In this document: one piece after another, positions 30,325-47,202 of the stretch
Position numbering within the stretch: the first letter of the stretch is position 1
Layout: each line of letters begins with the position of its first letter
Assembly: GCF_021729845.1 (NCBI RefSeq)
Contig: NZ_CP063397.1
Span: 1,564,001-1,628,000 of the forward strand
DNA length: 64,000 nt
Origin: Rhizobium sp. SL42
GTDB lineage: Bacteria > Pseudomonadota > Alphaproteobacteria > Rhizobiales > Rhizobiaceae
Direction: 5' to 3'
Notes under the pieces: generated by a model
Told to the model about the DNA's origin: nothing
Seen by the model: only the letters and a program-made list of their open reading frames with translations
Databases searched by the model: none
Program-made: the position numbers and the translations under genes

Positions 30325-30330
30325 GAACTA

Positions 30331-30356: not shown

Positions 30357-30369
30357 AGTGGAGATGTGC

Positions 30370-31937: not shown

Positions 31938-33022
31938 TGCTGGACATCGCCATCCGCCATGTGCAGGGCAGTTTTTCCCTGGAGGCAGATCTACAGATCG
32001 GCGAAGGCCTGACAGCGCTGTTTGGCCCTTCCGGCTCCGGCAAGACGACGCTGATCAATCTGGTCGCAGGCCTTGTCCGTCCGGGCAAGGGACAGATCCG
32101 GCTTTCGGGCGAAACCTGGAGCGACAGCGATCGTGGTGTCTTCCTGCCTCCCCATCGCCGGCGCATCGGCTATGTATTTCAGGAGCCACGGCTCTTTCCG
32201 CATATGACGGTGCGCCAGAACCTTGCCTATGGCGAACGCCTCTTGCCGCGCATCGAACGGCGGGAAAGCCTGCCGCGCGTCGCCGATCTGTTGCGGATTT
32301 CCGCCTTGCTGGATCGCCGTCCGCAACATCTGTCGGGTGGAGAAAAGCAGCGCGTGGCGCTGGGTCGCGCCCTGATGGCGAGCCCGCGGCTGCTGCTGAT
32401 GGATGAGCCGCTGTCGGCGCTCGACAGCGAACTGAAGCTGCAGATCCTGCCGGATATCGAGCGCATCCGCGACGCGGTCGGCATTCCGATCCTTTATGTC
32501 AGCCATTCGGTCGAGGAGGTCGCGCGGCTGGCTACCCGCGTCGTCGTCCTTGAACGCGGCAAGACCATCGCCATCGGCGCGCCGGATACAGTTCTATCGA
32601 GCGTTCCTCGCGGTGCCGGCGCCTTGCCGGCCGGCAATTTCATTGCCGCGACCATCACCGCCCATCATCAGGCCGACGGACTGACCGAAGCGCTGTCCAG
32701 TGCAGGCCCCCTGTTTCTCCGGGCGGTCGAACTACCGCCCGGTACCGAAATCCGCGTCTTTGTCCCCGTCGCCGATATCGTCCTTGCCACCGCCGAGGTG
32801 AGCGGCCTGTCGGCGCTCAATCGCCTGGCGGGCCGAATCACAGATATCCAGCGGGAAAACGGCTCGGCCGTCGCAGTCGTGGTCGATTGCAGCGGCGAGC
32901 CCATGGTCGTCGAGGTCACCCGCCGTTCGGCAACCCAGCTTGGGCTCGCCATCGGCAAGCCGGTACATCTTCTGTTCAAGACGGTATCGATTGCGCGGGA
33001 AGGCTTGTTTCGGCGGGGCTGA
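31934..33022 (+). CDS. modC: molybdate ABC transporter, ATPase with MOP domain
   Basis: This 362-residue ATPase has Walker A GPSGSGKTT (31-39), the Q-loop at YVFQEPRLFPHM, signature LSGGEKQRVALGRAL, Walker B LLLMDEPLSALD and switch His at YVSHSVEEV. The C-terminal part (about 290-355) is a MOP/TOBE-like regulatory domain that can bind oxyanion and tune transport. It ends two bases before the convergent single-domain ModE gene. Confidence 0.95.
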   Translation: MMLDIAIRHVQGSFSLEADLQIGEGLTALFGPSGSGKTTLINLVAGLVRPGKGQIRLSGETWSDSDRGVFLPPHRRRIGYVFQEPRLFPHMTVRQNLAYGERLLPRIERRESLPRVADLLRISALLDRRPQHLSGGEKQRVALGRALMASPRLLLMDEPLSALDSELKLQILPDIERIRDAVGIPILYVSHSVEEVARLATRVVVLERGKTIAIGAPDTVLSSVPRGAGALPAGNFIAATITAHHQADGLTEALSSAGPLFLRAVELPPGTEIRVFVPVADIVLATAEVSGLSALNRLAGRITDIQRENGSAVAVVVDCSGEPMVVEVTRRSATQLGLAIGKPVHLLFKTVSIAREGLFRRG

Positions 33023-33023
33023 C

Positions 33024-33410
33024 TTACTCGACGTCCGGCTTTTCCGGCGCTCCGGTTTCAAATTCCCGGTTCATTGCCTCCTCGAGCCAGTCGAGATCCG
33101 CCGTCAGGGCCTTTCGGCTCTCGCTGTCCATTCGCCGGCAACAGGCAAGCAATCGCTCGCCAAACGGCGTCAGCCCGGCGCCGCCGCCGCTCTTGCCGCC
33201 ATGGCGGGTGAAGATCGATGGTTCGACGAACATGCGGTTGATCTCGTCGGCAAGCAGCCATGCCCGGCGGTAGGACATGCCGATCGCAGCGCCCGCCGCC
33301 CTAATCGACCCATGCTCGCCGATCAGCGCCAGAAGCTCTGCCTTGCCCGGACCGAGACGCGCTCCGTTGGCAAGGTCGATCCTGAGCGTCAGGCGCGTGT
33401 CCCTTGTCAT
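33024..33410 (-). CDS. single-domain ModE-like winged-helix regulator
   Basis: This 128-residue protein consists only of the ModE/LysR-type winged HTH: LLALIGEHGSIRAAGAAIGMSYRRAWLLADEIN (region near 26-58), then the basic wing with HGGKSGGGAGLTPFG. The C-terminal MOP domains that bind molybdate in E. coli ModE are absent. It faces modC end to end and probably binds the operator at 30331. It starts two bases after the stop of an FAD-linked oxidase gene, so it is expressed from that operon rather than from modABC. Confidence 0.85.
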   Translation of the reverse strand: MTRDTRLTLRIDLANGARLGPGKAELLALIGEHGSIRAAGAAIGMSYRRAWLLADEINRMFVEPSIFTRHGGKSGGGAGLTPFGERLLACCRRMDSESRKALTADLDWLEEAMNREFETGAPEKPDVE

Positions 33411-33412
33411 CT

Positions 33413-34840
33413 TCAGTCGAGCACCTTGCCGGGGTTCATGATGCCTTCGGGGTCGAAAGCCTGCTTGATCCGCCGCATCAGTTCGGTCTCGATCGCCGGC
33501 CGGCTGGCGGACAGCTCGTCGCGCTTCAATTGTCCGACACCATGTTCGGCGGAAATCGAGCCGTTGTGCTTGTGCACGATCCCGTGCACCACGGCGTTCA
33601 TTTCGCGCCAGCGGCCGATGAAGTCAGCCTTGTCGGCGCCGACCGGCTGGCTGATATTGTAATGGATATTGCCGTCGCCGAGATGACCGAAAGCGCAGAT
33701 GCGGGCGTCCGGCATCACGCGGCGCACGGCCTCGTCCGCTTCGCTCAGAAAGGCTGGAATGCGCGACACGGGCACCGAGACGTCATGCTTGATCGAGCCG
33801 CCTTCCGGCCGCTGTGCCTCCGACATGCTCTCGCGCAAATGCCAGAACGCTTCCTGCTGCGCAAGCGAGCTGGCGATCGCGGCGTCTTCGATCAGGCCGG
33901 CCTCGAAGGCATCTTCGAGCAGAGCCTGGATCATCGCATCGGCCGTCTCGGCAGAATCGGAGGTGGAAATGTCGATCAGAACATACCAGGCATGGGCCGA
34001 GGGCAGGGGATCGCGCACGCCAGGGATATGCTTCGTGGTGAACTCGATGCCGAGGCGCGGCATCAGTTCGAAGCCGGTCAGTGCCGTGCCGCAATGCTGC
34101 GATGCCTTTTCGAACAGCGCCAGCGCCTGTGCAGGGCTATCGAGACCGGCAAAGGCCACCTGCTTGCCGCGCGGGCGCGGATACATCTTCAACACCGCGC
34201 CTGTAATGATGCCGAGCGTGCCTTCCGCCCCAATGAACAGGTCGCGCAGGTCATAGCCGCTATTGTCCTTTTTCAGTCGGCGCAATCCGTCCCAGATCTC
34301 GCCGGTCGGCAGGACCACTTCGAGCCCGAGGCAGAGCTGGCGCATGTTGCCATAGGCAAGCACGGCTGTGCCGCCGGCATTGGTCGACAGATTGCCACCA
34401 ATCCGGCAGGACCCTTCTGAGCCGAGCGACAGGGGAAACAGCCGGTCATGCTCTTCCGCCGCCTTCTGCACGCTTGCCAGGACACAGCCGCCGTCGACGA
34501 TGATCACATCGGCAAGCGCATCGACTTCGCGGATCCTGTTCATCCGCTCCAGTGACAGCAGAACGTCGTCGCTGCCCTCGCGCGGAACCTGCCCACCGAC
34601 AAGGCCGGTGCCGCCGCTGACCGGGACGATCGGCGTTCCTGTCGCGCTGGCGAGTTTCAGGATCGCCGAAACCTCCGCCGTGGAAGCCGGCTTCAGCACC
34701 AGCGGCGACGAGCCATGATAAAGCCCACGATTTTCGGTGAGGTATGGTTTGATGTCGTCCTGCAGGACCAGCGCATGGGCTTCCCCAACGATATCGATGA
34801 AGGCGCGCAGCGTCTCGGCTCGCGTCAATGTCATGCTCAT
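33413..34840 (-). CDS. FAD-linked oxidase, D-lactate/D-2-hydroxyglutarate dehydrogenase family
   Basis: This 475-residue flavoenzyme has an FAD-binding PCMH domain (about 40-220: TPIVPVSGGTGLVGGQVP, LGSEGSCRIGGNLSTNAGG, FIGAEGTLGIITGA). The C-terminal oxidase domain carries FGHLGDGNIHYNIS and ISAEHGVGQLKRDEL. These motifs belong to enzymes oxidising D-2-hydroxyacids such as D-lactate or D-2-hydroxyglutarate; the exact substrate is undetermined. Its start overlaps the tsaC stop (ATGA), and the ModE-like gene follows directly. Confidence 0.9.
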   Translation of the reverse strand: MSMTLTRAETLRAFIDIVGEAHALVLQDDIKPYLTENRGLYHGSSPLVLKPASTAEVSAILKLASATGTPIVPVSGGTGLVGGQVPREGSDDVLLSLERMNRIREVDALADVIIVDGGCVLASVQKAAEEHDRLFPLSLGSEGSCRIGGNLSTNAGGTAVLAYGNMRQLCLGLEVVLPTGEIWDGLRRLKKDNSGYDLRDLFIGAEGTLGIITGAVLKMYPRPRGKQVAFAGLDSPAQALALFEKASQHCGTALTGFELMPRLGIEFTTKHIPGVRDPLPSAHAWYVLIDISTSDSAETADAMIQALLEDAFEAGLIEDAAIASSLAQQEAFWHLRESMSEAQRPEGGSIKHDVSVPVSRIPAFLSEADEAVRRVMPDARICAFGHLGDGNIHYNISQPVGADKADFIGRWREMNAVVHGIVHKHNGSISAEHGVGQLKRDELSASRPAIETELMRRIKQAFDPEGIMNPGKVLD

Positions 34841-35832
34841 GCACTGTTTCCTTCCGCGTCACGCGGGGCGGCTGCCCGCACCAGCCGATCGTTGATTGCC
34901 TCGCCGAGCCCATGATCCGGAATGGCGACGACTGCGATGCCTTGCGCTCCGCTTGCGTCTGCTCGTTTCAGGTAGTCGAACAGATTGGCTGCTGCCTCTG
35001 CCAGATCTCCCGCCGGGCTGAGGTTCAACACCATGACGGCGTCGGCTTCTCCGCTGATCGGTGTGCTGCCGAATGCCACAAGCGCCTCATCTTTCGCGAC
35101 GGAAGTGGCGTTCAGCCGCACGGTGGTATCGGGCGCATAATGCGAGGCTAGCATGCCGGGGGCTTCGATGATTGCGGTACCGGCGACCTTGGGGCGCTCG
35201 ACAGTGACGCCTGCAAAGGCCTCTATGGCTTCAACGGAAATACCACCCGGTCGCAGCAGGCGTATTTGCCCGTCCTCGATCTTCAGAATGGTCGATTCAA
35301 CCCCGACTTCGCAGGCTCCGCCGTCGATCACAAGATCGATCTTGCTGCCCAGATCGTCATCGACATGGGCTGCCGTTGTCGGGCTGATCCTGCCGGAGGA
35401 ATTGGCGCTCGGTGCGGCGAGCGGCCGGCCGAAATGCCGGATCAGGTGGCCGGTGAAGCCGACCGGTACACGGATGCCGACGCTGTCCAGGCCGGCTGTC
35501 GCCAGTGGGTGGATGTCGCTTTCCGGTTTCAGCGGCAAGACCAGCGTCAGCGGCCCCGGCCAGAATTGTTCGGCCAGCCTGCGCGAAAGCGGATCGAAAT
35601 CTGCGTGCTGCTCGGCCATTTCGAGGTTGGCCATGTGGCAGATCAGCGGATTGAAGCGCGGCCGGCCCTTGGTCTGATAGATGCTGGCAATCGCAGCTGG
35701 ATTGGTTGCATCAGCAGCAAGGCCATAGACGGTCTCGGTCGGGATTGCCACCGGACGGCCGAGCGCAAGAATGACCGACGCGGCGTTGATCGCCTCATCC
35801 ATGCCGCTGCCGATTGCGATGATCCGGGCCAT
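34837..35832 (-). CDS. tsaC: L-threonylcarbamoyladenylate synthase (Sua5 type)
   Basis: This enzyme makes threonylcarbamoyl-AMP for the t6A modification of ANN-decoding tRNAs. The 331-residue form has the YrdC domain (about 10-200: PTETVYGLAADA, KGRPRFNPLICH, GPLTLVLP, SANSSGRISPT) plus a C-terminal Sua5 domain (about 230-325). It is therefore the long Sua5/TsaC2 class. It is the first gene of a three-gene operon. Confidence 0.94.
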   Translation of the reverse strand: MARIIAIGSGMDEAINAASVILALGRPVAIPTETVYGLAADATNPAAIASIYQTKGRPRFNPLICHMANLEMAEQHADFDPLSRRLAEQFWPGPLTLVLPLKPESDIHPLATAGLDSVGIRVPVGFTGHLIRHFGRPLAAPSANSSGRISPTTAAHVDDDLGSKIDLVIDGGACEVGVESTILKIEDGQIRLLRPGGISVEAIEAFAGVTVERPKVAGTAIIEAPGMLASHYAPDTTVRLNATSVAKDEALVAFGSTPISGEADAVMVLNLSPAGDLAEAAANLFDYLKRADASGAQGIAVVAIPDHGLGEAINDRLVRAAAPRDAEGNSA

Positions 35833-36054
35833 GTCCCTGCCTTGTTAGCTTTGTTCCCTGTGTCCTTAGCGTGTTCCAACATGCGCGATCAAATGCCTTT
35901 TTTGATGAGCGTAAGCATACATTGTTCCACAGTAAATTTTGAGGGGAATTGGCACCGCTAAAATTTTATATATCGATGTAACCGAAATAAAGAATTCTTC
36001 TGCGTATAGTCACCGGCAACGAGACAAAAGCCGACTCAAGCCGGGAAGCCACAG

Positions 36055-37134
36055 ATGCAGCAAGTCAAGAATCCTGCCTCCAGCATTGCGCTTCGTGTGG
36101 CAACCGCCATGCATCAGATGGGCATTGACGGGCTTCCCCGCAATTATGAGCTGGTCTACGAGGCCTATGCGGGCAGCAATCCCGAACTGGTCCGCGAATT
36201 CATTGCGCTCGGCAAGCTGAAGAGCCAGGAAGCGCTCGACGAGTTGGGCCGCAAATATCTGCCTCATCATCATGAGGATGGCTTGCTGAGCCGCCAGAGT
36301 GGTCAGGTTCGCGCTGAAATGAGCAATTTCATCAATCTGCTCAATGAGGAAAAGATTTCCCTGACCGACTATGGCCGAGTCATCGGCAATGCCTCGAAAA
36401 CCATCCTTACGGAAGCCGATCTTGAAGGAACACCGCTCGGCCAGTCGATCAAGGCACTGAAGGCCGCGACCGAACGGCGCGCGCATCAGAACAGCAATGT
36501 CGTGCGTGCCGTGGTCGACAAGACCGCATCGCTGGCCGATATGCAGCGCGAGGCCGATGAGGCCGAGGCGGCGAAGTTCGTCGATCCGCTCACGCGCCTT
36601 GCCAGCCGCCGCGCCTTCAACAAGGCCGTGGCCAAGATCTATGCCAACCCGGACATGCCGGTTCTGTGCGGCGTCGCCGTCGGTGAAATCGACGATTTTG
36701 CCCGTATCCAGGAGCAGATGGGGCCGGCTGTTGCCGAACGTTTCCTGATGCAGGTTGCCAAGGTTCTGGAAGCGGTTTCCGGCGGCGGCGATCTTGCCTG
36801 CCGCTTCGATGCCGGCCGCTTCGGGCTGTTGCTCTACACGTCCGACGAGGATGAGGTCAGCCGCGTCATCGAGCTGGTGCGCGCCAAGCTGAAGGCCACG
36901 GCCTTTGTCGGCTCCTCGACCGGCCGCGCTCCGGGCCAGATGGCCATGTCCTTCGGGGTGTGTTTTTCCGAGCAGGCGCCGAACGCCTTCGACTTCACCA
37001 ATTTCGCCGAGAAGGCGCTGTCGACATCCAAGGCCAATGGCGGCGATACCGTCACGATCTACGGCGCCAACGACTATGCCTCCAAGGACTGGCTGATCTA
37101 CAAGAACAAGCCGGTCGGCGGCTTCGGCGCCTGA
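36055..37134 (+). CDS. degenerate GGDEF-domain protein
   Basis: This 359-residue soluble protein has an N-terminal helical region (1-170) and a C-terminal GGDEF-like fold (about 175-335: VDPLTRLASRRAFNKAV, VAVGEIDDFARIQEQMG). The active-site loop reads CRFDAGRFGLLLY, so GGDEF is replaced by DAGRF. The RxxD inhibitory site is also missing (SGGGD). Diguanylate cyclase activity is therefore unlikely; a binding or scaffold role is more plausible. The ATG is the first Met after a weak ribosome-binding site. Confidence 0.85.
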   Translation: MQQVKNPASSIALRVATAMHQMGIDGLPRNYELVYEAYAGSNPELVREFIALGKLKSQEALDELGRKYLPHHHEDGLLSRQSGQVRAEMSNFINLLNEEKISLTDYGRVIGNASKTILTEADLEGTPLGQSIKALKAATERRAHQNSNVVRAVVDKTASLADMQREADEAEAAKFVDPLTRLASRRAFNKAVAKIYANPDMPVLCGVAVGEIDDFARIQEQMGPAVAERFLMQVAKVLEAVSGGGDLACRFDAGRFGLLLYTSDEDEVSRVIELVRAKLKATAFVGSSTGRAPGQMAMSFGVCFSEQAPNAFDFTNFAEKALSTSKANGGDTVTIYGANDYASKDWLIYKNKPVGGFGA

Positions 37135-37153
37135 CAGCGAGAGGGCCCGGCGT

Positions 37154-37759
37154 CTAAAGCTTGGCGATGATCTTACGAATTTCCGTATCCCGCGCGCCGA
37201 GCATCAGCACGTTGCGCAGCGCTTCCTTCGGATCGTGGGTGCGAAACAGCAAGCCGTTGTCACGGATCGACCTGTCGACCACCATCGCCTTCTGCTCGGT
37301 CTCCGGCTTGATCGCCACGGCAAAATACATGCGCGTGTAGCTTTGCCGGATCTGTTCGAAGAACTGCTCGGTCCCGCCGATTTCGGCAAAGAAATTGGCA
37401 ATGTAGAAGGCCCATTTCACGTCGGCATATTGGGCGAAGTTGGTGCGCGCCGCCGTGACGTGACAGTAGCCGAGATGCGGACTGTCATCGAGGGTCTTGT
37501 GGAAGATCATCTTCGGAAACTGGATCGACCGGTGGAAGCCGTTGATCCGGCTGTGGGTGGTCTCCGCCGCCGTTTCCAGCCGGCGTCCGGTGCGAACGGC
37601 AACCTCCGCATAGGTGAGGTAGCGCTTTTCCTCCGCCAGCCAGTCATCGCGATGGCGCGAGATACGGCCGGTGCGCAGGAATTCCGTGTGCGCGGCCTTG
37701 CTCGCGGTCGCGCTTTTGTCGGGGACTCTCGGGGCCGCGTAATATCGAAGTTTTTGCAT
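37154..37759 (-). CDS. conserved hypothetical protein
   Basis: This 201-residue soluble protein starts MQKLRYYAAPRVP. It has a Thr/Arg-rich helical first part (FLRTGRISRHRDDWLAEEKRY) and a mixed alpha/beta second part (KWAFYIANFFAEIGG, LLFRTHDPKEALRNVLMLG). It is likely a cytoplasmic Rhizobiales-specific protein; I do not recognise a family with certainty. The start is the Met giving the best-looking domain; an in-frame extension reaches 38068 without support. A near-match to an EcfG promoter (GGAAC-N16-CGTG) lies about 110-130 bases upstream. Confidence 0.65.
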   Translation of the reverse strand: MQKLRYYAAPRVPDKSATASKAAHTEFLRTGRISRHRDDWLAEEKRYLTYAEVAVRTGRRLETAAETTHSRINGFHRSIQFPKMIFHKTLDDSPHLGYCHVTAARTNFAQYADVKWAFYIANFFAEIGGTEQFFEQIRQSYTRMYFAVAIKPETEQKAMVVDRSIRDNGLLFRTHDPKEALRNVLMLGARDTEIRKIIAKL

Positions 37760-38125
37760 GTCGAGGCTCTGACGGTTACTGGCTCGGTACGCCGATATTA
37801 CAGCGACATGGTTAATCATGATTTGCAGGCACTGTGACCTCTTGAGGTTTCGCGAGGCTTGCCGCAGTGCACGTTGGTTGACGCAACTCGTTCCGCTCTG
37901 ATGATTTCTTCCGGGTGCGACAGACATTGGCGGCCAATCGCCTCGAATTGTCATTTTGCGCCATTGCAATAGTTTCGGGCGCCACCGATCTCCTCTATCT
38001 CCAAGAAAATACACATCATTTTTGAGGGGCGCGCTTTTTGCGCCTTTGCGCGGGCATGTCGCAAACATTCCCGGCGGTGTCGTTTCGCAACGCAGTACCG
38101 GACTGCCGCCTGTGTTTAGATATCT
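37760..38125. other. divergent regulatory region, no gene seen
   Basis: This gap lies between the leftward hypothetical gene and the riboswitch leader of gbcAB and must contain both promoters. TTTGCG and CGCAAA (38045-38050/38060-38065) form an inverted repeat about 60 bases before the riboswitch, a possible operator of unknown factor. No open frame here looks coding. Confidence 0.5.
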
Positions 38126-38307
38126 GCAAGCTCGAGGTGCCGCCCTGCTAGGGAGGGTGGGAAATCGGGAAGCCGGTCAAAATCCGGCGCTGCCCCCGCA
38201 ACGGTGGTGGAGATAGACGTAACGGCAAAAGGCCACTGGGAAGGTCCTGGGAAGGCGCCGAACGTGTCTGGCAACGGACGTCTCCAGAGCCCGGAAACCA
38301 GCCTTGA
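38126..38307 (+). ncRNA. cobalamin (AdoCbl) riboswitch
   Basis: All core elements are in order: GAGGTGCC near 38132, the GGGAAATCGGGAAGCCGGT segment, AATCCGGCGCTGCCCCCGCA leading to ACGGT, then GGCCACTGGGAAGG with GGGAAGGC, and the closing B12 box AGAGCCCGGAAACCAGCC (38286-38303). This is the classic class-I cobalamin aptamer. Between it and the Rieske gene lie a hairpin (GGTCGC/GCGACC, 38323-38339) and a second around the CCC-TTTTC-GGG at 38357-38367. These could act as the expression platform, probably controlling translation, since no terminator T-run follows. Confidence 0.95.
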
Positions 38308-38419
38308 AGCAATGATATTTGAGGTCGCGGTGGGCGACCGGAGATAGCCGTGATCGCCCTTTTCGGGTCGATTGGTGCTGCGCTCCTGTTCCATCGCCGG
38401 TGAAACGAACGAGGACGAC

Positions 38420-39664
38420 ATGGATCTGCACAGCACGGTATTGCGGCAGTTGAAGAACCGCCGGGAAGGCTTCAGCCTGGAGCAGCCTTTCTACATCGAT
38501 CAGGATTATTTCAAGCTCGACATGGAGCAGATCTGGTATCGCGACTGGCTGTTTATCGGCCATGACTGCGAGATCCCGCGCGCCGGCAACTATTTCACCG
38601 CCCAGGTCGGCGACTATCCGATCGTCATGGTACGCGGCAAGGACCAGGTGATCCGCGCCTTCCACAATACCTGCCGCCACCGCGGTCACCGCGTCTGCAC
38701 CTCGGACCGCGGCGCCTCCGCCAAGCTCGTCTGTCCCTATCACAACTGGACCTATGATCTCGACGGCTCGCTGGTCTTCGCCCGCCAGATGGGTGAAACC
38801 TTCGACAAGAACGAGTTCGGTCTGAAGCCTGTTCATTGCGAAAGTGTAGGCGGTTACATCTTCATCTGCCTCGCCAACGAGCCTGCCGATTTCGCACCGG
38901 TCCGTGCATCGATCGAACCCTACATGAAGCCGCATCGGCTGTCAGAGGCCAAGGTCGCTCATCGCAGCACGATCATCGAAAAGGGCAACTGGAAGCTCGT
39001 CTGGGAGAACAACCGCGAGTGCTACCACTGCGCCAGCAACCATCCTGAACTCTGCCGCACCTACCCGGAAGCCCCGACGGCAACCGGCGTCCAGGGCGCC
39101 GGTGACGATCCGGTCATCGCCGAACACTGGCTGCGTTGCGAGGCCGCAGGCCTGCCGAGCACGTTCAAGATCGACCCGAGCGGCCAGTTCCGCACCGCCC
39201 GCATGCCGCTGATCCAGGAAGCCGAGAGCTACACGATGTCCGGCAAGCGCGCCGTCAGGCGGCCGCTGTCCGACGACGTCTCGACCTCGCACATTGGCAC
39301 CATGCTTCTGTTCCACTATCCGTCGACCTGGAACCACATTCTCGTCGATCACGCGATCTCATTCCGCGTCACCCCCCTGTCTGCCGAAGAGACGGCCGTC
39401 ACCACCACGTGGCTGGTACACAAGGACGCAGTCGAAGGCGTCGACTATGACCTCGAGGAACTGACCCATGTCTGGGAAATGACCAATGACCAGGACCGCT
39501 CGATCGTCGAGGAAAATGCCTTCGGCATCCGGTCCCCGGCTTATGAGCCTGGCCCCTATTCGGTCGAGCATGAAGGTGGCGTCATGCAGTTCGTCGACTG
39601 GTACACGACCTTCATGATCAACCGTCTCCAGGGTGAAAAGACTCGCCTGTCCGCGGTCGCGTGA
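38420..39664 (+). CDS. gbcA: Rieske oxygenase component, glycine betaine demethylase GbcA-like
   Basis: This 414-residue alpha subunit has a Rieske 2Fe-2S centre (C85, H87 in CRHRGH; C105, H108 in CPYHNW). Its mononuclear iron site is at NNRECYHCASNHPEL (H203, H208), with a later Asp in TNDQDRS. HKDAVEGVDYD, NDQDR and YEPGPYS match GbcA, which demethylates glycine betaine to dimethylglycine and formaldehyde. Stachydrine and carnitine oxygenases are relatives, so the substrate needs proof. The ATG at 38420 is 112 bases after a cobalamin riboswitch. GbcB follows one base after the stop. Confidence 0.88.
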   Translation: MDLHSTVLRQLKNRREGFSLEQPFYIDQDYFKLDMEQIWYRDWLFIGHDCEIPRAGNYFTAQVGDYPIVMVRGKDQVIRAFHNTCRHRGHRVCTSDRGASAKLVCPYHNWTYDLDGSLVFARQMGETFDKNEFGLKPVHCESVGGYIFICLANEPADFAPVRASIEPYMKPHRLSEAKVAHRSTIIEKGNWKLVWENNRECYHCASNHPELCRTYPEAPTATGVQGAGDDPVIAEHWLRCEAAGLPSTFKIDPSGQFRTARMPLIQEAESYTMSGKRAVRRPLSDDVSTSHIGTMLLFHYPSTWNHILVDHAISFRVTPLSAEETAVTTTWLVHKDAVEGVDYDLEELTHVWEMTNDQDRSIVEENAFGIRSPAYEPGPYSVEHEGGVMQFVDWYTTFMINRLQGEKTRLSAVA

Positions 39665-39665
39665 G

Positions 39666-40751
39666 ATGAACATGATGCTCGCTCCCTATCGCCACGTTGA
39701 TGAAATGCGCCCCTGGTCCGACCGGGAGCATCTGCTGGAATGCGTCGCCGTCACGCCGGAAGCCCCCGACGTGATGACGTTCACCTTCCGGCCGAACAAG
39801 CCGGGCCTGTGGTTCCGCTATCAGCCCGGCCAGTTCGTTACGCTGGAGATCCCGGTCTCGAACGAGCCGGTGATGCGCACCTATACGCTGTCGTCCAGCC
39901 CGTCGCGGCCCTACACGATCGCGATCACGGTCAAGGCGCAGAAGGACTCGATCGGGACGCGCTGGATGTTCGACAACCTGAAGCCCGGCATGGCACTGAA
40001 GGCGATCGGCCCGCTCGGCGATTTCTCCTATGCCCGTCATCCGGGCCGGAAATACCTGTTCATCTCGGCCGGCTCCGGCATCACTCCGATGATGTCGATG
40101 AGCCGCGACATGGGCGACCGCTCGCCCGACAGCGACATCGCCTTCCTGCATTGTGCCCGCTCGCCCGACGACATCATCTTTCGTTGGGAACTGGAAGCCA
40201 AGGCGCGCGACATGCCGCATTTCACGCTCGGCTTCATCATCGAACAGCTCGGCCGAGGCCAGCTTTGGTCAGGCTTGAAGGGCCGTATCGACAAGGCGAA
40301 GATCGCGCTTCTGGCCCCGGATTTTCTCGAACGCACGGTCTTCTGTTGCGGGCCTGAGCCGTTCATGGCGACGGTGCGCGAGGCCCTGTCCGGTGCCGGC
40401 TTCGACATGAGCCAGTATCACGAGGAGACTTTCCAGCCGGCCAAGCCGCAGCCGCCGATCGTCGTTGCCGATCATTCGGATGGCGAGCAGCCGACCAAGG
40501 TCACGTTTGCCATGTCCGGCAAGAACGGACTCTGCGCGCCAGGCCATACGGTACTTCAGGCAGCCCGCTCCTCCGGCGTGCGCATCGGTGCGGCATGCGA
40601 ATCCGGCCTCTGCGGCACCTGCAAGGTGCTCAAGATTTCCGGCGAGGTCGAGATGGAACACAATGGCGGCATCCTCGACGAGGAAATCGACGAGGGCTAC
40701 ATCCTCGCCTGCTGTTCGCGGCCGAAGGGCGATATCGAAATCGAAGCGTGA
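39666..40751 (+). CDS. gbcB: Rieske oxygenase reductase component, GbcB-like
   Basis: This 361-residue reductase moves electrons from NAD(P)H to GbcA. FAD binding is at MRTYTLSSSP (near 78) with RYQPGQ-type PGQFVTLEIP before it. Nucleotide binding is at FISAGSGITPMMSM (near 136) and VFCCGPEPFM (near 225). A C-terminal plant-type 2Fe-2S ferredoxin (about 275-361) carries ACESGLCGTCK and the distal ILACCSRP cysteine. This domain order (FNR then ferredoxin) is that of GbcB. Start at ATG 39666; ATGs at 39672 and 39675 are alternatives. Confidence 0.9.
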   Translation: MNMMLAPYRHVDEMRPWSDREHLLECVAVTPEAPDVMTFTFRPNKPGLWFRYQPGQFVTLEIPVSNEPVMRTYTLSSSPSRPYTIAITVKAQKDSIGTRWMFDNLKPGMALKAIGPLGDFSYARHPGRKYLFISAGSGITPMMSMSRDMGDRSPDSDIAFLHCARSPDDIIFRWELEAKARDMPHFTLGFIIEQLGRGQLWSGLKGRIDKAKIALLAPDFLERTVFCCGPEPFMATVREALSGAGFDMSQYHEETFQPAKPQPPIVVADHSDGEQPTKVTFAMSGKNGLCAPGHTVLQAARSSGVRIGAACESGLCGTCKVLKISGEVEMEHNGGILDEEIDEGYILACCSRPKGDIEIEA

Positions 40752-40776
40752 TCTCTGCCAGACGATGGCGATCATC

Positions 40777-40808
40777 AGGGCGCGCCGCTTGTCGGGTGCG
40801 CCCTTTTT
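40777..40808 (+). terminator. terminator of gbcAB
   Basis: AGGGCGC and its complement (40777-40783/40798-40804), extended by inner pairs, run into five T. It lies 25 bases after the gbcB stop. Confidence 0.85.
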
Positions 40809-40852
40809 CGTGGCGTGATTTTCCCCACTTTATCGTTCTTTCGCAAGGCGAT

Positions 40853-40877
40853 GGAACAAACGGAACAGCCATCCGTT
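40853..40877 (+). promoter_or_regulatory. EcfG/RpoE2-type promoter of the BA14K gene
   Basis: GGAAC (40853-40857), 16 bases, CGTT (40874-40877) matches the alphaproteobacterial general-stress consensus. The start codon lies about 185 bases downstream, leaving a long leader of roughly 175 bases whose content I cannot assign. Confidence 0.6.
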
Positions 40878-41062
40878 GACAGGCAATCGCGGTCGTTGAC
40901 CGCGGCCAACCGGACCGCGCAAACACAAGAAGTTTTAGAATAAAACCAATGTTAATGCTGGGTTCAGGATGAAGCCGATACTTTTCATTTCAGGATCAGC
41001 AGTCTCAAGGGCATGGGCCGGGACACCAAGCTGGTCGCGAAAAACCGCAGGGAGAAAGTCGC

Positions 41063-41500
41063 ATGAAGACTGCATTCAATCGTCTGGCCGGTCTCGTACT
41101 GGCTGCCGCTGTTGGCTTCACCGGCATCGTGCCGGCACAGGCCATGAGCCTGCCGCGCGCGCCTGTCGAAGCAAGCTCCGACGTCGCCCAGGTCCAGTAT
41201 CGTCGTCGTGAGTATCGCCGCCACTATAACGGCCATCACTATCACAACGGCCATCGTGGCTATTCGCACCGCAGGCCCGGTTATCGCTATTACAACGGCG
41301 CCTGGTTCCCGCTGGCCGCCTTCGCAGCCGGTGCGATGATCGGCGGCGCCGTCGCTGCGCAGCCGCGGGTAAGTGCCGGTGGCATCAATCCGAGCCACTA
41401 CCAGTGGTGCGCCAACCGCTACCGCTCGTACGACAGCCGCAGCAACACGTTCCAGCCCTACAATGGTCCGCGTCAGCAGTGCCTGTCGCCCTACTATTGA
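41063..41500 (+). CDS. BA14K-family exported protein
   Basis: This 145-residue precursor has a signal peptide ending near VPAQAMS, an Arg/His/Tyr-rich middle (YRRREYRRHYNGHHYHNGHRGY) and a hydrophobic AAFAAGAMIGGAVAA stretch. It ends with the BA14K signature HYQWCANRYRSYDSRSNTFQPYNGPRQQC (region 113-141). BA14K proteins are periplasmic/outer-envelope proteins of Rhizobiales, with lectin-like activity reported in Brucella. Ribosome-binding site GGGAG. Likely part of the general stress response through the EcfG-type promoter. Confidence 0.93.
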   Translation: MKTAFNRLAGLVLAAAVGFTGIVPAQAMSLPRAPVEASSDVAQVQYRRREYRRHYNGHHYHNGHRGYSHRRPGYRYYNGAWFPLAAFAAGAMIGGAVAAQPRVSAGGINPSHYQWCANRYRSYDSRSNTFQPYNGPRQQCLSPYY

Positions 41501-41552
41501 GCCAATACCTCTCTGATCGGCGTGCCCGAACAGCTCGCCCCGTCAGCGCTTC

Positions 41553-41577
41553 AATGCCCGGCCTCGTGCCGGGCATT
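41553..41577. terminator. terminator shared by the BA14K and CorA-type genes
   Basis: A 10-bp perfect stem (AATGCCCGGC with its complement) with loop CTCGT lies about 50 bases past the BA14K stop and 30 bases past the convergent transporter stop. Confidence 0.8.
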
Positions 41578-41606
41578 GTCGTTTCGGCCCGGGCGTTCAG
41601 CCTGCG

Positions 41607-42602
41607 CTACAGGATGCCCGCACGCCGCAGGAGATACCAGGCGGCGGCAATCGAGATGACGATGAAGCCGATCGCGAAGATTGTGCCATCGGCCTCCGCC
41701 GCAAACGGCAGGTTGGATGTGTTCATGCCGAAAAAGCCGGTGACCAGGGACGGCGGGAGCAGGAAGGCCGTCATCAGAGACAGGATATAAAGGTGCCGGT
41801 TTGTCTCCGAGGTCAGCTTGGAGTCGATTTCCTCATGCAGCAACCGGGCGCGTTCCTGCAGTGCATGCACGTCGTGATCCACGGCTTCCAGCCTTGCCGT
41901 CAGCCGTTGCGCCACCTCGTCGAAGCCGAAGGGCATGTCCTCGTCGTCGCTGGCCGCGGCGCGGCGCATCAGCGACAGCATGGTGCGCAAGTGACGGTAG
42001 AGCCGAACAACCACCCGTCGGACAGGAGCAAGCCGGCGCCGCTCGTCGCGCAACTCGCTGTCATAGACGAAGTCCTCGATCGCGTTCAGTTCCTCGGTCA
42101 GTTCGATCACCACCGAAATAATGCCGCGCTGGAACTCGGCGACAAGTGTCTCGAACAGATGCATGGGACTGCGATATTTCGCGGAGTTCTTTTCCACCGC
42201 GGCCCGGACCCGGTCGATCGAGCGGATCGGCTGCAGTCTGGTGGTGATGATGAACCGATCGGACAGCGCAAAGTGCAGCCAGGCGAGGTCGCGTGTCTCC
42301 TTGTCGAACTCCCGCTGGAAGTCGACGAGGGTGCCGAACACCATCTGGTCGTCCACCGTCAAGGCGGCATGCGTGTCATGCGTGGTCAACACGGAGCGCG
42401 CCTGCTCCGTCAGCCATTCGAAGCCGTCGAGAAGAGCCCCGACGCGCGCATCCGCAATGTTGAGATGCAGCCACAGAAATCCCGGACCGTCAGCCAGCAG
42501 TGCCGGCGTGACGTCGGCTGGAAGCCGTGTTGCCGCACCGGATGCAGGATCGATCCGATAACCCCAGACAAGGCCGGGCAAAGCGTGAATGGCATTGAGC
42601 AT
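41607..42602 (-). CDS. CorA/ZntB-family divalent cation transporter
   Basis: This 331-residue protein has a large cytoplasmic alpha/beta funnel (1-265) and two C-terminal helices. The first ends with the family selectivity motif, FFGMNTSNLPF (GMN near residue 293). The second is IFAIGFIVISIAAAWYLLRR. The family forms pentameric Mg, Co or Zn channels. The early WLHLNIAD and the sequence after GMN favour the ZntB-like branch, so zinc is possible, but the ion is not settled. Confidence 0.9.
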   Translation of the reverse strand: MLNAIHALPGLVWGYRIDPASGAATRLPADVTPALLADGPGFLWLHLNIADARVGALLDGFEWLTEQARSVLTTHDTHAALTVDDQMVFGTLVDFQREFDKETRDLAWLHFALSDRFIITTRLQPIRSIDRVRAAVEKNSAKYRSPMHLFETLVAEFQRGIISVVIELTEELNAIEDFVYDSELRDERRRLAPVRRVVVRLYRHLRTMLSLMRRAAASDDEDMPFGFDEVAQRLTARLEAVDHDVHALQERARLLHEEIDSKLTSETNRHLYILSLMTAFLLPPSLVTGFFGMNTSNLPFAAEADGTIFAIGFIVISIAAAWYLLRRAGIL

Positions 42603-42659
42603 GGGCGTGTCCTTCGGGGTACGCGGCGGTTGGCGGGACCTGTGCGAAGCGGAAAACGC

Positions 42660-42687
42660 AAAAAGCGCGCCGGTTGAACCGGCGCGC
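42660..42687 (-). terminator. terminator of phoX
   Basis: GCGCGCCGGTT pairs with AACCGGCGCGC (42665-42675/42677-42687). On the minus strand it is followed by TTTTTGCGTTTT. It lies about 25 bases after the phoX stop. Confidence 0.88.
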
Positions 42688-42711
42688 CTCGGGATCGTCT
42701 AGTGCGAGGGC

Positions 42712-44622
42712 TTAGCCAATTCTGGCATTGTCTTCGCGCTTGACGGCGACGATTGTCGAACGTGGCAACTTGCCTTCGCCATCAGGGAAGGGGGCGTTCG
42801 GGTGCTGGATGCCGACGAACATCGTCCGCTTATCGCCTGTCCAGGTCATGCCGGTCACTTCGCCGCCCTTCGGGCCGGTGAGGAAGCGCTCGATGCGGCC
42901 GGTGGCCGGATCGCCGGCGAGCATCTGGTTGTTGCCCTGGCCGATAAAGTCGCCTTCGTTCGAATCTTCACCGTCCGTCTGGATCCACAAGAGGCCTGTG
43001 CTGTCGAACATCATGCCGTCCGGCGAGTTGAACATGTTACCGGAATTGATGTTGGACGAACCGGCATAGGCGCCGTCCTTGTGCACGTCCGGATTGCCGG
43101 CCATGACGAACAGGTCCCACTTGAACTTGCCATCGGCATGGTCGTCGTTTTCCGGATACCAGCGCACGATCTGACCGAACTCGTTGCCTTCGCGCGGGTT
43201 GGCGGCATTGATTTCCATCACGTCGCCGCCGGCATTGGTGCGCATCTTGCCGTCCTTGAGAACGGCGCGGTGCGAATTGTTGGTCAGTGCGCAATAGGCT
43301 TCGATCGCAACCGGGTTGACCGCGACCCATTCCGGGCGGTCCATGGTGGTCGCGCCGACCTTCGAGGCGGCCTGGCGGGTGAAGACGCAGATCTCGTCCA
43401 TCTTCATGCCTGTGGTTTCTTCCGTCAGCGCCAGCCATTCGCCGGTGCCTTCGTCGGAGAACTTGGCGACGTAGAGCGTGCCTTCGTCGAGCAGCTTGGA
43501 TGTGTCGCTACCCGGGACGTAGATGCCGGTGGAAACGAACTTGTAGAGGAATTCGCCACGCTCGTCGTCGCCCATATAGACGACCACGCGGCCATCGCGG
43601 GCCACCACGACGGCTGCGTTTTCATGCTTGATCCGGCCAAGCGCGGTGCGCTTGATCGGCGTCGAGGACGCATTCGACGGATCGATCTCGACGACAAAGC
43701 CGGCGCGGCGCGGTTCGTTCGGGTTCTTCGACACGTCGAAGCGCTCGTCGAACTGCTCGTAGCCGTAGCGGGTCTCGGCGGCAATGCCGTAGCGCTTGAA
43801 GTCGTCCGGCATCTTGAAGTTTGCGTCTGTGGAGCCGAAATAGCCGTTGAAGTTTTCTTCGCAGGTGAGGTAGGTGCCCCACGGTGTCTTGCCGGCGCCG
43901 CAGTTGTTGAAGGTCCCGAGACAGTCGACACCGGCAGGATCCGCAGCCGTCTTGACGAGGTCGGAGCCGGCGGCAGGACCGGACAGCTTCATCGGCGTGT
44001 TGTGGTGGATGCGGCGGTTGAACGGGCTGTCGAGCACGATTTCCCAGCCATCAGCGCCTTCGGCCACTTCCATGACGGTCACGCCCTGCATGTTCTGCAG
44101 GATCTTCACGTCGTCGAGGCTCTTGGGCATGCCCTTTTCATTGTTGGGCAGGTTGGTCTCGTTGTTCACATATTCATGGTTGACGGCAATCACCTGATGG
44201 GTGCCGATCAGGAAGCTCTCCATGCCGTCGGTGTTTTCACCGAACACCTTGTCGGAGGCTTCGAGCGAAACGCCGTTGACCGGGTCGATATCGGCAACGT
44301 TGGAAAACAGTGGCTGGCCCCACTTGGCAAGCGGCCTCCAGCTATAACCTTCCGGCACGTGGATGGTCGTGTCGGTGGCAATGGCGATCGGCTTGAACGG
44401 GAAGCGCGAGGCGGCTTCCTGGGCCTGTGCGGAAGTCGAGTTCATCAGGTTGCCGACGGAGCCCATGGCGACAGCGGCCGAGCCCATGGCCAGGACGCCG
44501 AGAAAGCCGCGGCGGGAAATGGCGCGTTCGACGACTTCGTCGAAATCGGTAGTGGCGGGTGGCGGGTTCTGCAACTCGTCCCATTCGTCCCAGGACAGAT
44601 GGTTCGTATTTGTGTCGCTCAT
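42712..44622 (-). CDS. phoX: PhoX-family alkaline phosphatase (DUF839)
   Basis: This 636-residue protein has a twin-arginine signal: ISRRGFLGVLAMGSAAVAM at residues 35-53, with cleavage near SAQAQE. The mature beta-propeller shows PhoX features: GTHQVIAVNHEYVNNE, GVDCLGTFNNCGAGKTPWGTYLTCEENF (residue region about 225-252), RIKHENA, FNSPDGMMFD and TWTGDKRTMFVGIQHP. PhoX uses Ca and Fe to release phosphate from organic esters in the periplasm or outside the cell. A triple Pho box upstream supports induction by phosphate starvation. GGAGG precedes the ATG. Confidence 0.93.
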   Translation of the reverse strand: MSDTNTNHLSWDEWDELQNPPPATTDFDEVVERAISRRGFLGVLAMGSAAVAMGSVGNLMNSTSAQAQEAASRFPFKPIAIATDTTIHVPEGYSWRPLAKWGQPLFSNVADIDPVNGVSLEASDKVFGENTDGMESFLIGTHQVIAVNHEYVNNETNLPNNEKGMPKSLDDVKILQNMQGVTVMEVAEGADGWEIVLDSPFNRRIHHNTPMKLSGPAAGSDLVKTAADPAGVDCLGTFNNCGAGKTPWGTYLTCEENFNGYFGSTDANFKMPDDFKRYGIAAETRYGYEQFDERFDVSKNPNEPRRAGFVVEIDPSNASSTPIKRTALGRIKHENAAVVVARDGRVVVYMGDDERGEFLYKFVSTGIYVPGSDTSKLLDEGTLYVAKFSDEGTGEWLALTEETTGMKMDEICVFTRQAASKVGATTMDRPEWVAVNPVAIEAYCALTNNSHRAVLKDGKMRTNAGGDVMEINAANPREGNEFGQIVRWYPENDDHADGKFKWDLFVMAGNPDVHKDGAYAGSSNINSGNMFNSPDGMMFDSTGLLWIQTDGEDSNEGDFIGQGNNQMLAGDPATGRIERFLTGPKGGEVTGMTWTGDKRTMFVGIQHPNAPFPDGEGKLPRSTIVAVKREDNARIG

Positions 44623-44677
44623 GGTTGACCTCCGAGGTTTGATTGGAATGGTTCCAGCCTTGGGTTAGTCAGTCGCG

Positions 44678-44706
44678 ATGACAGTCATGTGACGAACGGG
44701 TGACGG
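44678..44706 (-). promoter_or_regulatory. triple Pho box of phoX
   Basis: On the minus strand CCGTCAC, TCGTCAC and CTGTCAT are spaced by exactly four bases each, giving the 11-bp periodicity of PhoB sites (CTGTCAT-N4-CTGTCAT). The last unit is a perfect consensus. It lies 56 bases upstream of the phoX ATG. Confidence 0.85.
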
Positions 44707-44758
44707 CAATGCATATCAGGCGTGGCTCAGCAACCGGCCGTCAGCGCCCGCAGTGACG

Positions 44759-45856
44759 CTAGGCCATGGCCCGCAACGCCGCCGAGAAGCAGATCAGGGC
44801 AAACACCGCCGGCACACTGAACCGGATGGTGGCGCGGATCGCCGGCTCCAGGTGGCTGTATCGCGCTTTGCCGGGATAGTTGGCATAGATCAGCACGATG
44901 TCGAGTAGAAGCACGAGGATCAGGTAGAAATAGCCGAGCGAGACCATGAAGGCGATCGGCGAGTTCATCGAGATCGAGCCGGGAAAGCTCGATTCGTAGG
45001 TGAAGCTCAGCGCCGCCAGCGCCAGCAGCGCCGAATAGGTGATTGGCGCCTTGTCACCGATCAGGCTGACCTTGGCCCAGAGGATGAAGATCGAGACAGA
45101 CATGACCGCAAGGAAGGGCACGAAGATCGGCAGGACGAAATATTGCCAGTCGCGCTCGACGGTCGCTGTCGCAAGAACCCGCACGAAAGGCCGCGCATTC
45201 CAGCCGTGGAAACGCTCCATCACCACGTCGAGCGCATGCGCCGTCCAGTTGGTCGCGGAAATGTCCTTTTCGATCGCCGAAAGTTCCCGGTCGATGTCGT
45301 TCATCACATAGATCATCTGCTCGGCCGGATAGCGCGGCGAGACCATGGAGAGCGTCAGGCGCTGCTGGTCGAAGGGAAAGGTCGTCATGTCGATGCCGAC
45401 CCGGAAATCGGCATCGAGCCGGCGGATCCGCGTCACCGTTCCGTCGGCGCGCAGGGTCAGTGCCGTCGACTGGGTGCGTGGTTCGCTGATCTGGTTCTCG
45501 ATCTCCGTGCCCGGTGTCCACATCGCCGCGAGCCTGTCCGTGGCTTCCTGGCCGACATAGTCGAAGCGGTTGAACCCGGTGATCTTCGGATCGAAGGCCT
45601 CGCCGGGATTGGTCCAGCGCTCGGTGACCTCGATCATCATCGAGGCTTCCCCGAGCGTCTCGTTGATGCGCGACACGTTGAGGACCCGGATCGACAGATG
45701 CACCGGAAGCGGCAGGTAGACGCCGGAGGGTAGCGGCCTGGCGCTTTCTTCGGCCAGAAGCGGGAAGGCGGCGATCAGCGACAGCCAGAGCGCCAGAGCC
45801 ATGCGCCAAAAGGCAAGCGCTGGGTGAGGGAACGGCAGGGCCGGTCGCGATCTCAC
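44759..45856 (-). CDS. prokaryotic pentameric ligand-gated ion channel homologue
   Basis: This 365-residue protein has the Cys-loop-receptor/GLIC plan: a signal peptide (about 13-35), a beta-sandwich extracellular domain (about 45-238) and four helices (M1 240-262, M2 270-289, M3 299-324, M4 343-364). The diagnostic loop reads TTFPFDQQRLTLS (158-170), matching the FPFDxQ core that lacks flanking cysteines in bacterial forms. M1 has the conserved proline (VLPIFVPFLAVMS). Start is a GTG overlapping the Cache gene stop (GTGA), so translation is coupled. Ion selectivity and ligand cannot be read from sequence. Confidence 0.88.
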   Translation of the reverse strand: MRSRPALPFPHPALAFWRMALALWLSLIAAFPLLAEESARPLPSGVYLPLPVHLSIRVLNVSRINETLGEASMMIEVTERWTNPGEAFDPKITGFNRFDYVGQEATDRLAAMWTPGTEIENQISEPRTQSTALTLRADGTVTRIRRLDADFRVGIDMTTFPFDQQRLTLSMVSPRYPAEQMIYVMNDIDRELSAIEKDISATNWTAHALDVVMERFHGWNARPFVRVLATATVERDWQYFVLPIFVPFLAVMSVSIFILWAKVSLIGDKAPITYSALLALAALSFTYESSFPGSISMNSPIAFMVSLGYFYLILVLLLDIVLIYANYPGKARYSHLEPAIRATIRFSVPAVFALICFSAALRAMA

Positions 45857-47010
45857 ATCTCGTCTCCCTCGATGCGCCGTTTGCCATGCTCTGCCGCCAG
45901 CGCGTCGATCGCCTGGCGCAGGTCTGCGAATTCCTTGAGCCCGCTGCTGTCCGGCGCGTGGCCACCCTCAGAGCCGGCCGCCACGGCGGTCGCATGGGCT
46001 GCAAGCGCGCCGAGCGGCCGCAGCACAAGCCCCCGGACGGCGATCATCACCACGCCATAGCCGGCGAGCAGGCCGATCAGGCCGACGGCAACCGCTGCGA
46101 TCACGGCGCGGTTGAAGCCGCTGTCGATCTCCGAAATGTCGCGGGCGATGAAGATCGTGCCGATCATCCGGCCCGAATAGTCGAGCAGCGGCTGGGCAAA
46201 GGTGCCGAAGCGCTTGCCGTCGATGCGCGCTTCCGCCTGGACCGGCGAGCGCTGGAGGCCGATGGCGCCCTGCCGGTGCAATTGCTCGAACAGCGCGGAA
46301 TTGGTGGCCGATTCCTGCACTAGTCCGGCGCTGTCCTTGGCGATTGTCTGGTCCTTGGGCGTAAATCCGGACATGGCCGGGCTGAGAAAAAGGGCGAAGT
46401 CGGCGCCGGAGGCGGATTTCGCCAGATCCATCAGTTTCTTGAGGTCGACGCCAACCTCGAAGGTTCCGATCAGCGTCTCACCCTCTGCAACCGGCGCCAC
46501 TGCGCGCAGGCTGAGGCCGGCCAGTCCCACCTCCAGCCCTTTCTGCAATTGCCGGCTGCGATTGGCGGCCAGGATCATCGGCCGGATGCTGGAGAGATCC
46601 TGCCCGAAATTCTTCGGATCCTGCACGCGCAGGAAGCTCTTGATGTCGGCGGAATGGAAATGCAGCATGTTGACGCCGGCTTCGCTGGCCAGCGCCTGAT
46701 AGCTCGGCTTGAGATAGCGAGTCAGGCTGTCGCGATCGCCGGCCTTGAACATGCCGACGACCAGTGGATCGCGGGCAATCTGCATCGCATGGGTGGCCGA
46801 GAGGCTTGCCGCCTGCTCCATCGACGAGGTGAGAAGCAGAGCCGTCACCTGCATTTCGCGGCTCTTGCTGGCGGCAAGCTGTGCCTGGTTTCCGCCGATC
46901 ACGACCGCGCCGCCGATGGCAAAGACAAGGCCGATGCAGAGCGCCGTGACGAGCGCGAGGGTTTTGTCCACAGTCATGGGAATCCGGAAGGTTGGCAGCG
47001 GCGGGAACAT
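45853..47010 (-). CDS. Cache-domain (dCache_3-like) membrane receptor without output domain
   Basis: This 385-residue protein has helix 1 (about 18-40), a periplasmic double-Cache region (about 45-295) and helix 2 (301-326). A HAMP-like segment follows (326-375), then only about ten residues. MLHFHSADIKSFLRVQDPKNFGQDLS and the following IRPMILAAN...GLEVGLAGLSLRAVAPV (region 115-174) are typical of dCache_3 sensors. No methyl-accepting, kinase or GGDEF domain follows. The gene runs straight into the ligand-gated channel gene with a GTGA overlap. ATG 47010 is used; ATG 46977 and an extension to 47181 are alternatives. Confidence 0.85.
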   Translation of the reverse strand: MFPPLPTFRIPMTVDKTLALVTALCIGLVFAIGGAVVIGGNQAQLAASKSREMQVTALLLTSSMEQAASLSATHAMQIARDPLVVGMFKAGDRDSLTRYLKPSYQALASEAGVNMLHFHSADIKSFLRVQDPKNFGQDLSSIRPMILAANRSRQLQKGLEVGLAGLSLRAVAPVAEGETLIGTFEVGVDLKKLMDLAKSASGADFALFLSPAMSGFTPKDQTIAKDSAGLVQESATNSALFEQLHRQGAIGLQRSPVQAEARIDGKRFGTFAQPLLDYSGRMIGTIFIARDISEIDSGFNRAVIAAVAVGLIGLLAGYGVVMIAVRGLVLRPLGALAAHATAVAAGSEGGHAPDSSGLKEFADLRQAIDALAAEHGKRRIEGDEM

Positions 47011-47186
47011 TTTCCGTAGGACAAGTCGCAGTGACGGCAAACAGCCAAGTTTGGGCCAATATCGGGCAAGCTTTGGGTGGATTGAGCCCGCTTCAGCGCC
47101 TTGTCTGCCTCCCAGGCGACCGGTGATGGTGGCCAAGACGAGAGGCATGCGATGACCGCCGGCCAGCGCCGCGCCATGCAAATAGT

Positions 47187-47202
47187 TTGACGTTTACGTA
47201 AA
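47187..47202 (+). promoter_or_regulatory. candidate LiuR-type operator
   Basis: TTGACGTTTACGTAAA, with core ACGTTTACGT, resembles sites of MerR-type LiuR regulators of branched-chain amino-acid and fatty-acid breakdown. It lies about 90 bases upstream of the acyl-CoA dehydrogenase start. The match is by memory of the consensus. Confidence 0.5.

Follow-up and report, generated by a model that had tools for sequence, protein, structure and literature searches.

A cobalamin riboswitch before a Rieske demethylase-like operon in Rhizobium sp. SL42 and its relatives: a likely B12-independent stand-in for a corrinoid system

Why should a cobalamin riboswitch stand in front of an oxygenase operon? 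The question is raised by a 64-kb stretch of the Rhizobium sp. SL42 genome (5.17 Mb in three contigs), C1:1564001-1628000 (C1 being contig NZ_CP063397.1), which we call the window and whose own numbering we use wherever C1 is not given. Here the riboswitch precedes a tandem pair of genes for a Rieske oxygenase and its reductase. We consider it likely that the oxygenase, placed under a B12 riboswitch, stands in without B12 for a corrinoid system that demethylates betaine. With cobalamin plentiful, the riboswitch would shut off the oxygenase and reductase, and MttB, MtgC, and MtgD, together with RACo and DUF1638, would demethylate betaine and pass the methyl group to tetrahydrofolate. With cobalamin scarce, the corrinoid system would fail, the riboswitch would open, and the oxygenase would take over with O2 and NAD(P)H, releasing formaldehyde. 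Four elements of this scheme are inferences: that the RNA binds the ligand, that control runs in the stated direction, that translation is the step controlled, and that the two systems share a substrate, most likely glycine betaine, with proline betaine possible. The predicted direction agrees with an initial annotation of this DNA, which expected expression at scarce B12.

The riboswitch, the operon, and the corrinoid counterpart

Scanning the window with cmscan yields a single match above a gathering score: RF00174 at 38118-38320 on the plus strand (101.3 bits against a gathering score of 31.5, E = 3.5e-24), covering model positions 1-189. Judged by its curated score and complete aptamer, the element is a cobalamin riboswitch. 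The initial annotation had described a complete aptamer before the operon and proposed a covariance-model search as a check; its existence is borne out, and its distance from the first gene has to be corrected from 112 bases to 99 nt, counted from the aptamer end to the oxygenase ATG at 38420. That no cobalamin gene adjoins it also holds: none was recognized by reading the open reading frames (ORFs) of 30000-48000.

The oxygenase gene (38420-39664, plus strand) has an ATG start with GAGGA in front and encodes 414 amino acids with Rieske and Ring_hydroxyl_A domains (Pfam). The reductase gene (39666-40751, plus strand), starting one base past the oxygenase stop, encodes 361 amino acids with FAD_binding_6, NAD_binding_1, and Fer2 domains, the last for the 2Fe-2S cluster. 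In alignment, residues 196-204 of the oxygenase (ENNRECYHC) place an Asn where CntA has its aromatic residue (Y203) and a CxxC pair by the iron site. These two features mark the group Vb Rieske oxygenases, whose named members demethylate glycine betaine or proline betaine (PMC7948474, PMC10952381; here and below, papers are cited for the parts available to us). The window oxygenase thus has the Rieske and catalytic domains, the Asn, and the CxxC pair of group Vb, and its reaction type, quaternary-ammonium demethylation, is well supported by domains and motifs. No other gene of this kind was found in the genome, two further matches being 30-32% alike over about half the length.

The exact identity is another matter. 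Against the GbcA equivalog model NF058607 the oxygenase reaches 511.9 bits (cut-off, 670), in a match that spans most of the model length, so GbcA identity by curated model fails; NF058606 gives 380.2 bits on the operon (cut-off, 500). Our GbcA reference consists of ten proteins above the NF058607 cut-off, eight of them in the tree (L228 and L229 are absent). In that tree the window oxygenase belongs to a clade supported at 99/97 and sister to one with Stc2-like proteins of Sinorhizobium meliloti, and the above-cut-off GbcA proteins fall outside both. The oxygenase is 56% identical to the Stc2-like proteins and 47-48% identical to the eight GbcA proteins. The motifs FHYPxTWNH and ARMPL are common to the oxygenase clade and the Stc2-like proteins, not to gammaproteobacterial GbcA; as a guide to substrate choice, these pocket motifs do not decide between the candidate betaines. 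The best PDB sequence matches are 3n0q and 3vca, the latter of which we take to be Stc2; the Stc2 label itself comes from this identity and from a neighbor gene annotated stc4 in L214. With the oxygenase below the GbcA cut-off and in a clade sister to the Stc2-like proteins, the name gbcAB is approximate for the operon, and gbcA/stc2-like and gbcB/stc4-like describe the two genes better. Of the gbcAB-like operon in the initial annotation, the betaine-demethylase-like part therefore stands and the precise GbcA/GbcB identity does not, both models being below cut-off; its alternative of an unknown corrin-related substrate is not needed, since the enzyme groups with quaternary-ammonium demethylases.

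A cobalamin-dependent counterpart, its role assigned by homology, is encoded in the same genome. One of three MttB (PF06253) proteins, at C1:2695814 (770.9 bits), lies in a region (C1:2688000-2706000) that also holds an MtgC-like corrinoid protein, a methyltetrahydrofolate:corrinoid methyltransferase (395.2 bits; cut-off, 259), DUF1638 and MTHFR-like proteins, RACo, a BHMT/MtgE homologue (569.6 bits; cut-off, 338), and a betaine-type ATP-binding cassette (ABC) transporter with OpuAC, a permease, and ProV (333.2 bits; cut-off, 326.6). An aerobic, cobalamin-dependent route of glycine betaine demethylation with these components has been described in Ruegeria pomeroyi (PMC12478193). The BHMT/MtgE homologue is situated directly 3′ of the transporter genes, within the MttB-corrinoid region C1:2688391-2704525; judged from gene order, this placement is in line with the proposed tie between betaine breakdown and methionine synthesis. 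A second MttB (C1:1526407-1527945) is followed by an OYE-type flavoprotein, the pair spanning C1:1526407-1530008. Reading the ORFs of 18 kb there revealed no recognizable corrinoid protein; the pair possibly serves a proline-betaine or dimethylglycine route.

The genome holds six cobalamin riboswitches in all, and the other five precede four B12/cobalt loci and nrdHIEF. The genes after them encode CbiM (TIGR00123), BluB (TIGR02476), CobW with CobN (PF02492, TIGR02257), a FecCD-type ABC transporter taken by reading as B12 uptake, and NrdHIEF (TIGR04170, TIGR00333, TIGR04171; NrdH by reading), in which NrdE, NrdI, and NrdF are class Ib ribonucleotide reductase. The nrd genes belong to the B12-independent isozymes controlled by cobalamin riboswitches, and by these family assignments nrdHIEF is another such isozyme in the genome under study. 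Isozymes of B12-dependent enzymes are a recognized class of cobalamin riboswitch targets (PMC3766115).

Co-occurrence with the corrinoid system and rival explanations

The near relatives of the window oxygenase gene belong to the Rhizobiaceae, and we surveyed them in two samples. The family sample comprises 151 genomes, 56 of which carry the oxygenase gene (E up to 1e-120); 55 leaders were fetched and scanned with Rfam, and the counts are those of the Rfam matches (compared with cmscan, motif scoring overlooked G061 and G057 and made a false call in G097). The named sample comprises 80 loci, 79 of them scorable (L044, at a contig edge, is excluded); all 38 negatives and 14 of the 41 positives were checked with cmscan, the other 27 positives were scored by motifs, and mtgC rather than MttB was searched for. 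Four gene sequences are identical between the samples, so that 136 rows give 132 distinct ones.

The switch precedes the oxygenase gene in 37 of the 56 family genomes, spread over 29 genus codes, and in 41 of the 79 named loci. The feature is conserved across many genera of the family. Its presence follows that of the corrinoid system closely. In the family sample, 36 of the 37 genomes with the switch have mtgC, as do three of the 19 without it (P = 4e-10, Fisher's test). MttB gives the same counts (36/37 versus 3/19), and lies within 6 kb of mtgC in 36 of 36 genomes by the listed coordinates. These tables retain three genomes whose gene is Stc2-like (G090, G098, and G002), without which the mtgC contrast is 36/37 versus 1/16. 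The named sample shows mtgC in 41 of 41 loci with the switch and four of 38 without. Read in the other direction, genomes that have the gene and lack mtgC also lack the switch, in 16 of 17 family cases (the exception is G094) and in all 34 scorable named ones. All 19 switch-less family genomes keep one to five cobalamin riboswitches elsewhere, and the loss is therefore specific to the oxygenase gene. The neighbors of that gene are the same with or without the switch, so the genes compared are orthologues.

The counterpart might be a different corrinoid methyltransferase, for example the second MttB acting on proline betaine, in which case the oxygenase would be a stachydrine demethylase under B12 control. 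The sister position of the Stc2-like clade and the shared FHYPxTWNH and ARMPL motifs would suit this, as would the distribution of the second MttB type (E up to 1e-230; identity, 74-100%), which 23 of the 37 switch-bearing genomes have and none of the 19 switch-less ones. Yet 14 of the 37 lack it, and G014, G042, G047, G117, and G140 have the mtgC-linked MttB alone, the latter being found in 36 of the 37. We accordingly rejected the second MttB as a constant partner, and regard this explanation as possible but rather unlikely.

We give distinctly less credence to a link through methionine, in which a split B12-dependent methionine synthase would draw on MtgC as well, with the oxygenase switched on for one-carbon balance or against a pile-up of betaine once methionine production stalls. 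MtgC and MtgD are required for both tasks in R. pomeroyi (PMC12478193), and the BHMT/MtgE homologue sits in the SL42 cluster itself, but the oxygenase makes no methionine.

The purpose put forward in the initial annotation was supply: at low B12 the demethylase would provide glycine, from which 5-aminolevulinate and the corrin ring are built, together with one-carbon units for S-adenosylmethionine. A switch open at low B12 is what this would need, and the genome has CobN and CobW; a review also credits betaine, as a methyl donor, with stimulating the 5-aminolevulinate precursor and with higher B12 yields in industry (PMC8123684). However, the switch tracks mtgC and not CobN (match E up to 1e-150). 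Matches to CobN occur in 22 of the 37 switch-bearing genomes and in 10 of the 19 switch-less ones (P = 0.78), a comparison in which the query could miss divergent CobN forms; ten switch-less genomes thus retain CobN. Supply is therefore improbable as the purpose.

Relatedness among the genomes was addressed on a combined quick gene tree of the 132 distinct rows, 128 of them counted, on which the switch changes 12 times and mtgC 11 times. The three Stc2-like genes were left out of the tests that follow. Eight supported independent pairs comprise, on average, 6.1 concordant, none opposed, and 1.9 with equal mtgC states (median P = 0.031; range, 0.016-0.125). A model of dependent evolution is favored over an independent one (likelihood ratio, 38.3; four degrees of freedom; P about 1e-7), in a class of models that can overstate few events. 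Under the dependent model, the rate of switch loss is 52.6 without mtgC and 0.43 with it, roughly a hundredfold difference. Both features are missing from R. lusitanum, Rhizobium sp. Leaf306, and the Allorhizobium/A. vitis group, which sit inside groups where most rows have both. Switch and mtgC change together on the gene tree. That both are merely old features lost together once or a few times is hard to credit: 29 of the 38 switch-less named rows do fall in one group (Agrobacterium and R. leguminosarum relatives; support, 94) and the single-sample tree tests are not significant, but the 12 and 11 changes, and eight supported pairs with about six concordant and none opposed, argue against so simple a history.

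Leader structure and points against the proposal

Directly after the aptamer, at 38323-38339 (plus strand), is a hairpin with stem GGTCGC/GCGACC and loop GGTGG, presumably P13-like by its position. Among the 42 leaders with the switch that we compared, 38 have a GGNGG-loop hairpin with at least five of six stem pairs, and between lineages the two sides of the stem have changed in matched pairs (for instance GGTCGC/GCGACC, GATTGC/GCGATC, GACCGC/GCGGTC). In the 13 nearest leaders the stem has changed on single sides only, never on both, and its pair count does not exceed that of shuffles; the fold of 38318-38372 taken alone is no better than its shuffles (z = -0.67).

The Shine-Dalgarno (SD) sequence of the oxygenase gene, GAGGA at 38411-38415 (plus strand), is predicted to be largely hidden: four of its five bases are paired at 0.94-0.99 and the fifth at 0.21. 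The predicted anti-SD partner, 38352-38363 (plus strand), pairs at a probability of about 0.6-0.7 with most of 38408-38419; the exceptions, 38410 and 38415, have other partners (0.3 and 0.2, respectively). Predicted pairing of the SD with upstream sequence averages 0.72 in the 42 leaders and 0.38 in 38 switch-less orthologous leaders (P = 1.4e-8), and exceeds 0.7 in 26 of 42 and four of 38, respectively. The consensus fold of nine leaders of the R. tropici group contains a long hairpin that takes up one strand of the first hairpin together with the anti-SD and leaves the SD free; its covariation is slight, one of 30 pairs having changed on both sides. The long hairpin and the post-aptamer hairpin are mutually exclusive. 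Control is thus probably exerted by hiding the ribosome-binding site: bound ligand would allow the first hairpin to form, hiding the SD (off), and in its absence the long hairpin would form and leave the SD free (on).

Termination is the other control considered. A fold test finds a terminator-like hairpin followed by TTTT at 38332-38363 (plus strand), which a terminator scan of 37900-40900 misses. By this test such a structure is present in seven of the 42 leaders, and its T-run is broken in the close sister L010; as it is not conserved, its function is doubtful, and we prefer translational control. No sigma-70-like promoter was found in 37900-40900, a weak negative, as the stretch before the riboswitch yielded none. 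The initial annotation had named an internal terminator with a separate gbcA promoter downstream as evidence that would refute riboswitch control; of this combination the hairpin is present and a promoter was not found, so the case is not clearly made. The terminator scan finds one structure in the region against 2.4 on average in shuffles, and the intrinsic-terminator-like hairpin at the operon end (40777-40804, plus strand) is accordingly a weak prediction.

Several observations weigh against the oxygenase as a stand-in for the corrinoid system. The Fisher and Mann-Whitney tests ignore relatedness, the combined tree is the gene's own and not a species tree, and neither sample is significant alone, with three pairs in the named one (P = 0.25-0.5) and five in the family one (P = 0.06-0.25; G042 scored here without a switch, although RF00174 lies 119 nt before its gene). 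G094 has a switch and neither mtgC nor MttB, its aptamer score of 61.3 bits being the lowest of the family sample. Conversely, mtgC occurs without a switch on the gene in L026, L028, L032, L033, and G102 (as it does in G090 and G098, whose gene is Stc2-like). Since the oxygenase is nearer to the Stc2-like proteins than to gammaproteobacterial GbcA, it and the corrinoid system need not share a substrate. The link with MtgC may run through methionine synthesis. The MtgC-like protein itself scores below the cut-offs of NF047996 (210.4 of 370 bits) and NF047995 (176.6 of 310 bits); aerobic MtgC is described as phylogenetically distinct from that of anaerobes (PMC12478193). In the leaders, the window and L011 both have the terminator-like hairpin with TTTT, and a direct test of the SD-leader duplex is weaker than the pairing probabilities, with z below -1.5 in nine of 42 leaders and one of 38. 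The B12-independent stand-in remains our preferred explanation. The more general statement, that B12 supply decides the chemistry of rhizobial betaine demethylation through one RNA switch that is lost soon after the corrinoid system, seems to us somewhat less secure, though still probable.

The genes around the operon, by reading, encode GGDEF-type, tsaC/ywlC-like, glcD-like, and CorA-like proteins; the glcD-like one, the sole member of this set compared with Pfam, has FAD_binding_4 and FAD-oxidase_C domains. Elsewhere in the window are a PhoX-type alkaline phosphatase (42712-44622, minus strand; PF05787, 609 bits) and a bacterial homologue of pentameric channels with a neurotransmitter-gated ion-channel ligand-binding domain (PF02931, 52.1 bits; 44759-45856, minus strand), its gene adjoined by one with a dCache_3 sensor domain (45853-47181, minus strand). 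A 736-amino-acid protein (28029-30239, plus strand) contains five DUF1217 stretches.

Significance and comparison with known systems

If the proposal is true, cobalamin riboswitch control extends to osmolyte and carbon catabolism, and the rhizobial Rieske betaine demethylase has a regulatory reason to coexist with a corrinoid route. Sequence would then predict which strains need B12 (or cobalt) to use betaine and which release formaldehyde. Betaines are common in plants and soils, and B12 is patchy; for this reason the choice between the two chemistries would bear on one-carbon flow, osmolyte use, and B12 cross-feeding. The proposal also makes the recent idea of an aerobic MtgBCD pathway easy to test, since B12 should turn off its oxygenase stand-in.

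Our literature search turned up no report linking gbcAB, or a Rieske betaine demethylase, to a cobalamin riboswitch; as it reached few subscription papers and no supplements, it does not prove novelty. The words "betaine", "rieske", and "dioxygenase" are absent from the main text of PMC3766115. In the available part of PMC12478193, the sole "riboswitch" is in the title of a reference on glycine, with no link to gbcA.

The window operon resembles GbcAB of Pseudomonas and Chromohalobacter in its tandem Rieske oxygenase and reductase and in the group Vb signature, and differs from GbcA in being only 47-48% identical and below the NCBIfam cut-off. It is closer to Stc2 of S. meliloti, to which it is related by sister clades, 56% identity, and the same pocket motifs; in contrast, the Stc2-like genes of G090, G098, and G002 have no riboswitch within the 800 nt before them. 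The likeness to MtgBCD (Mausz et al. 2025, PMC12478193) lies in the SL42 cluster with MttB, a corrinoid protein, a pterin-binding methyltransferase, DUF1638, RACo, and MtgE homologues. The parts of that paper available to us treat GbcAB as the route of bacteria without MtgBCDE, whereas here both occur in one genome and the riboswitch is on the oxygenase.

The nearest parallel in control is with metE, a B12-independent isozyme under a cobalamin riboswitch (PMC3766115, PMC2211319), and with nrd: in each case a cobalamin riboswitch precedes the cobalamin-free member of an isofunctional pair in one genome. The metE and nrd pairs serve the synthesis of methionine and deoxyribonucleotides, whereas the pair proposed here would serve betaine demethylation. 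The locus is best read as a new isofunctional enzyme pair under a known cobalamin riboswitch logic.

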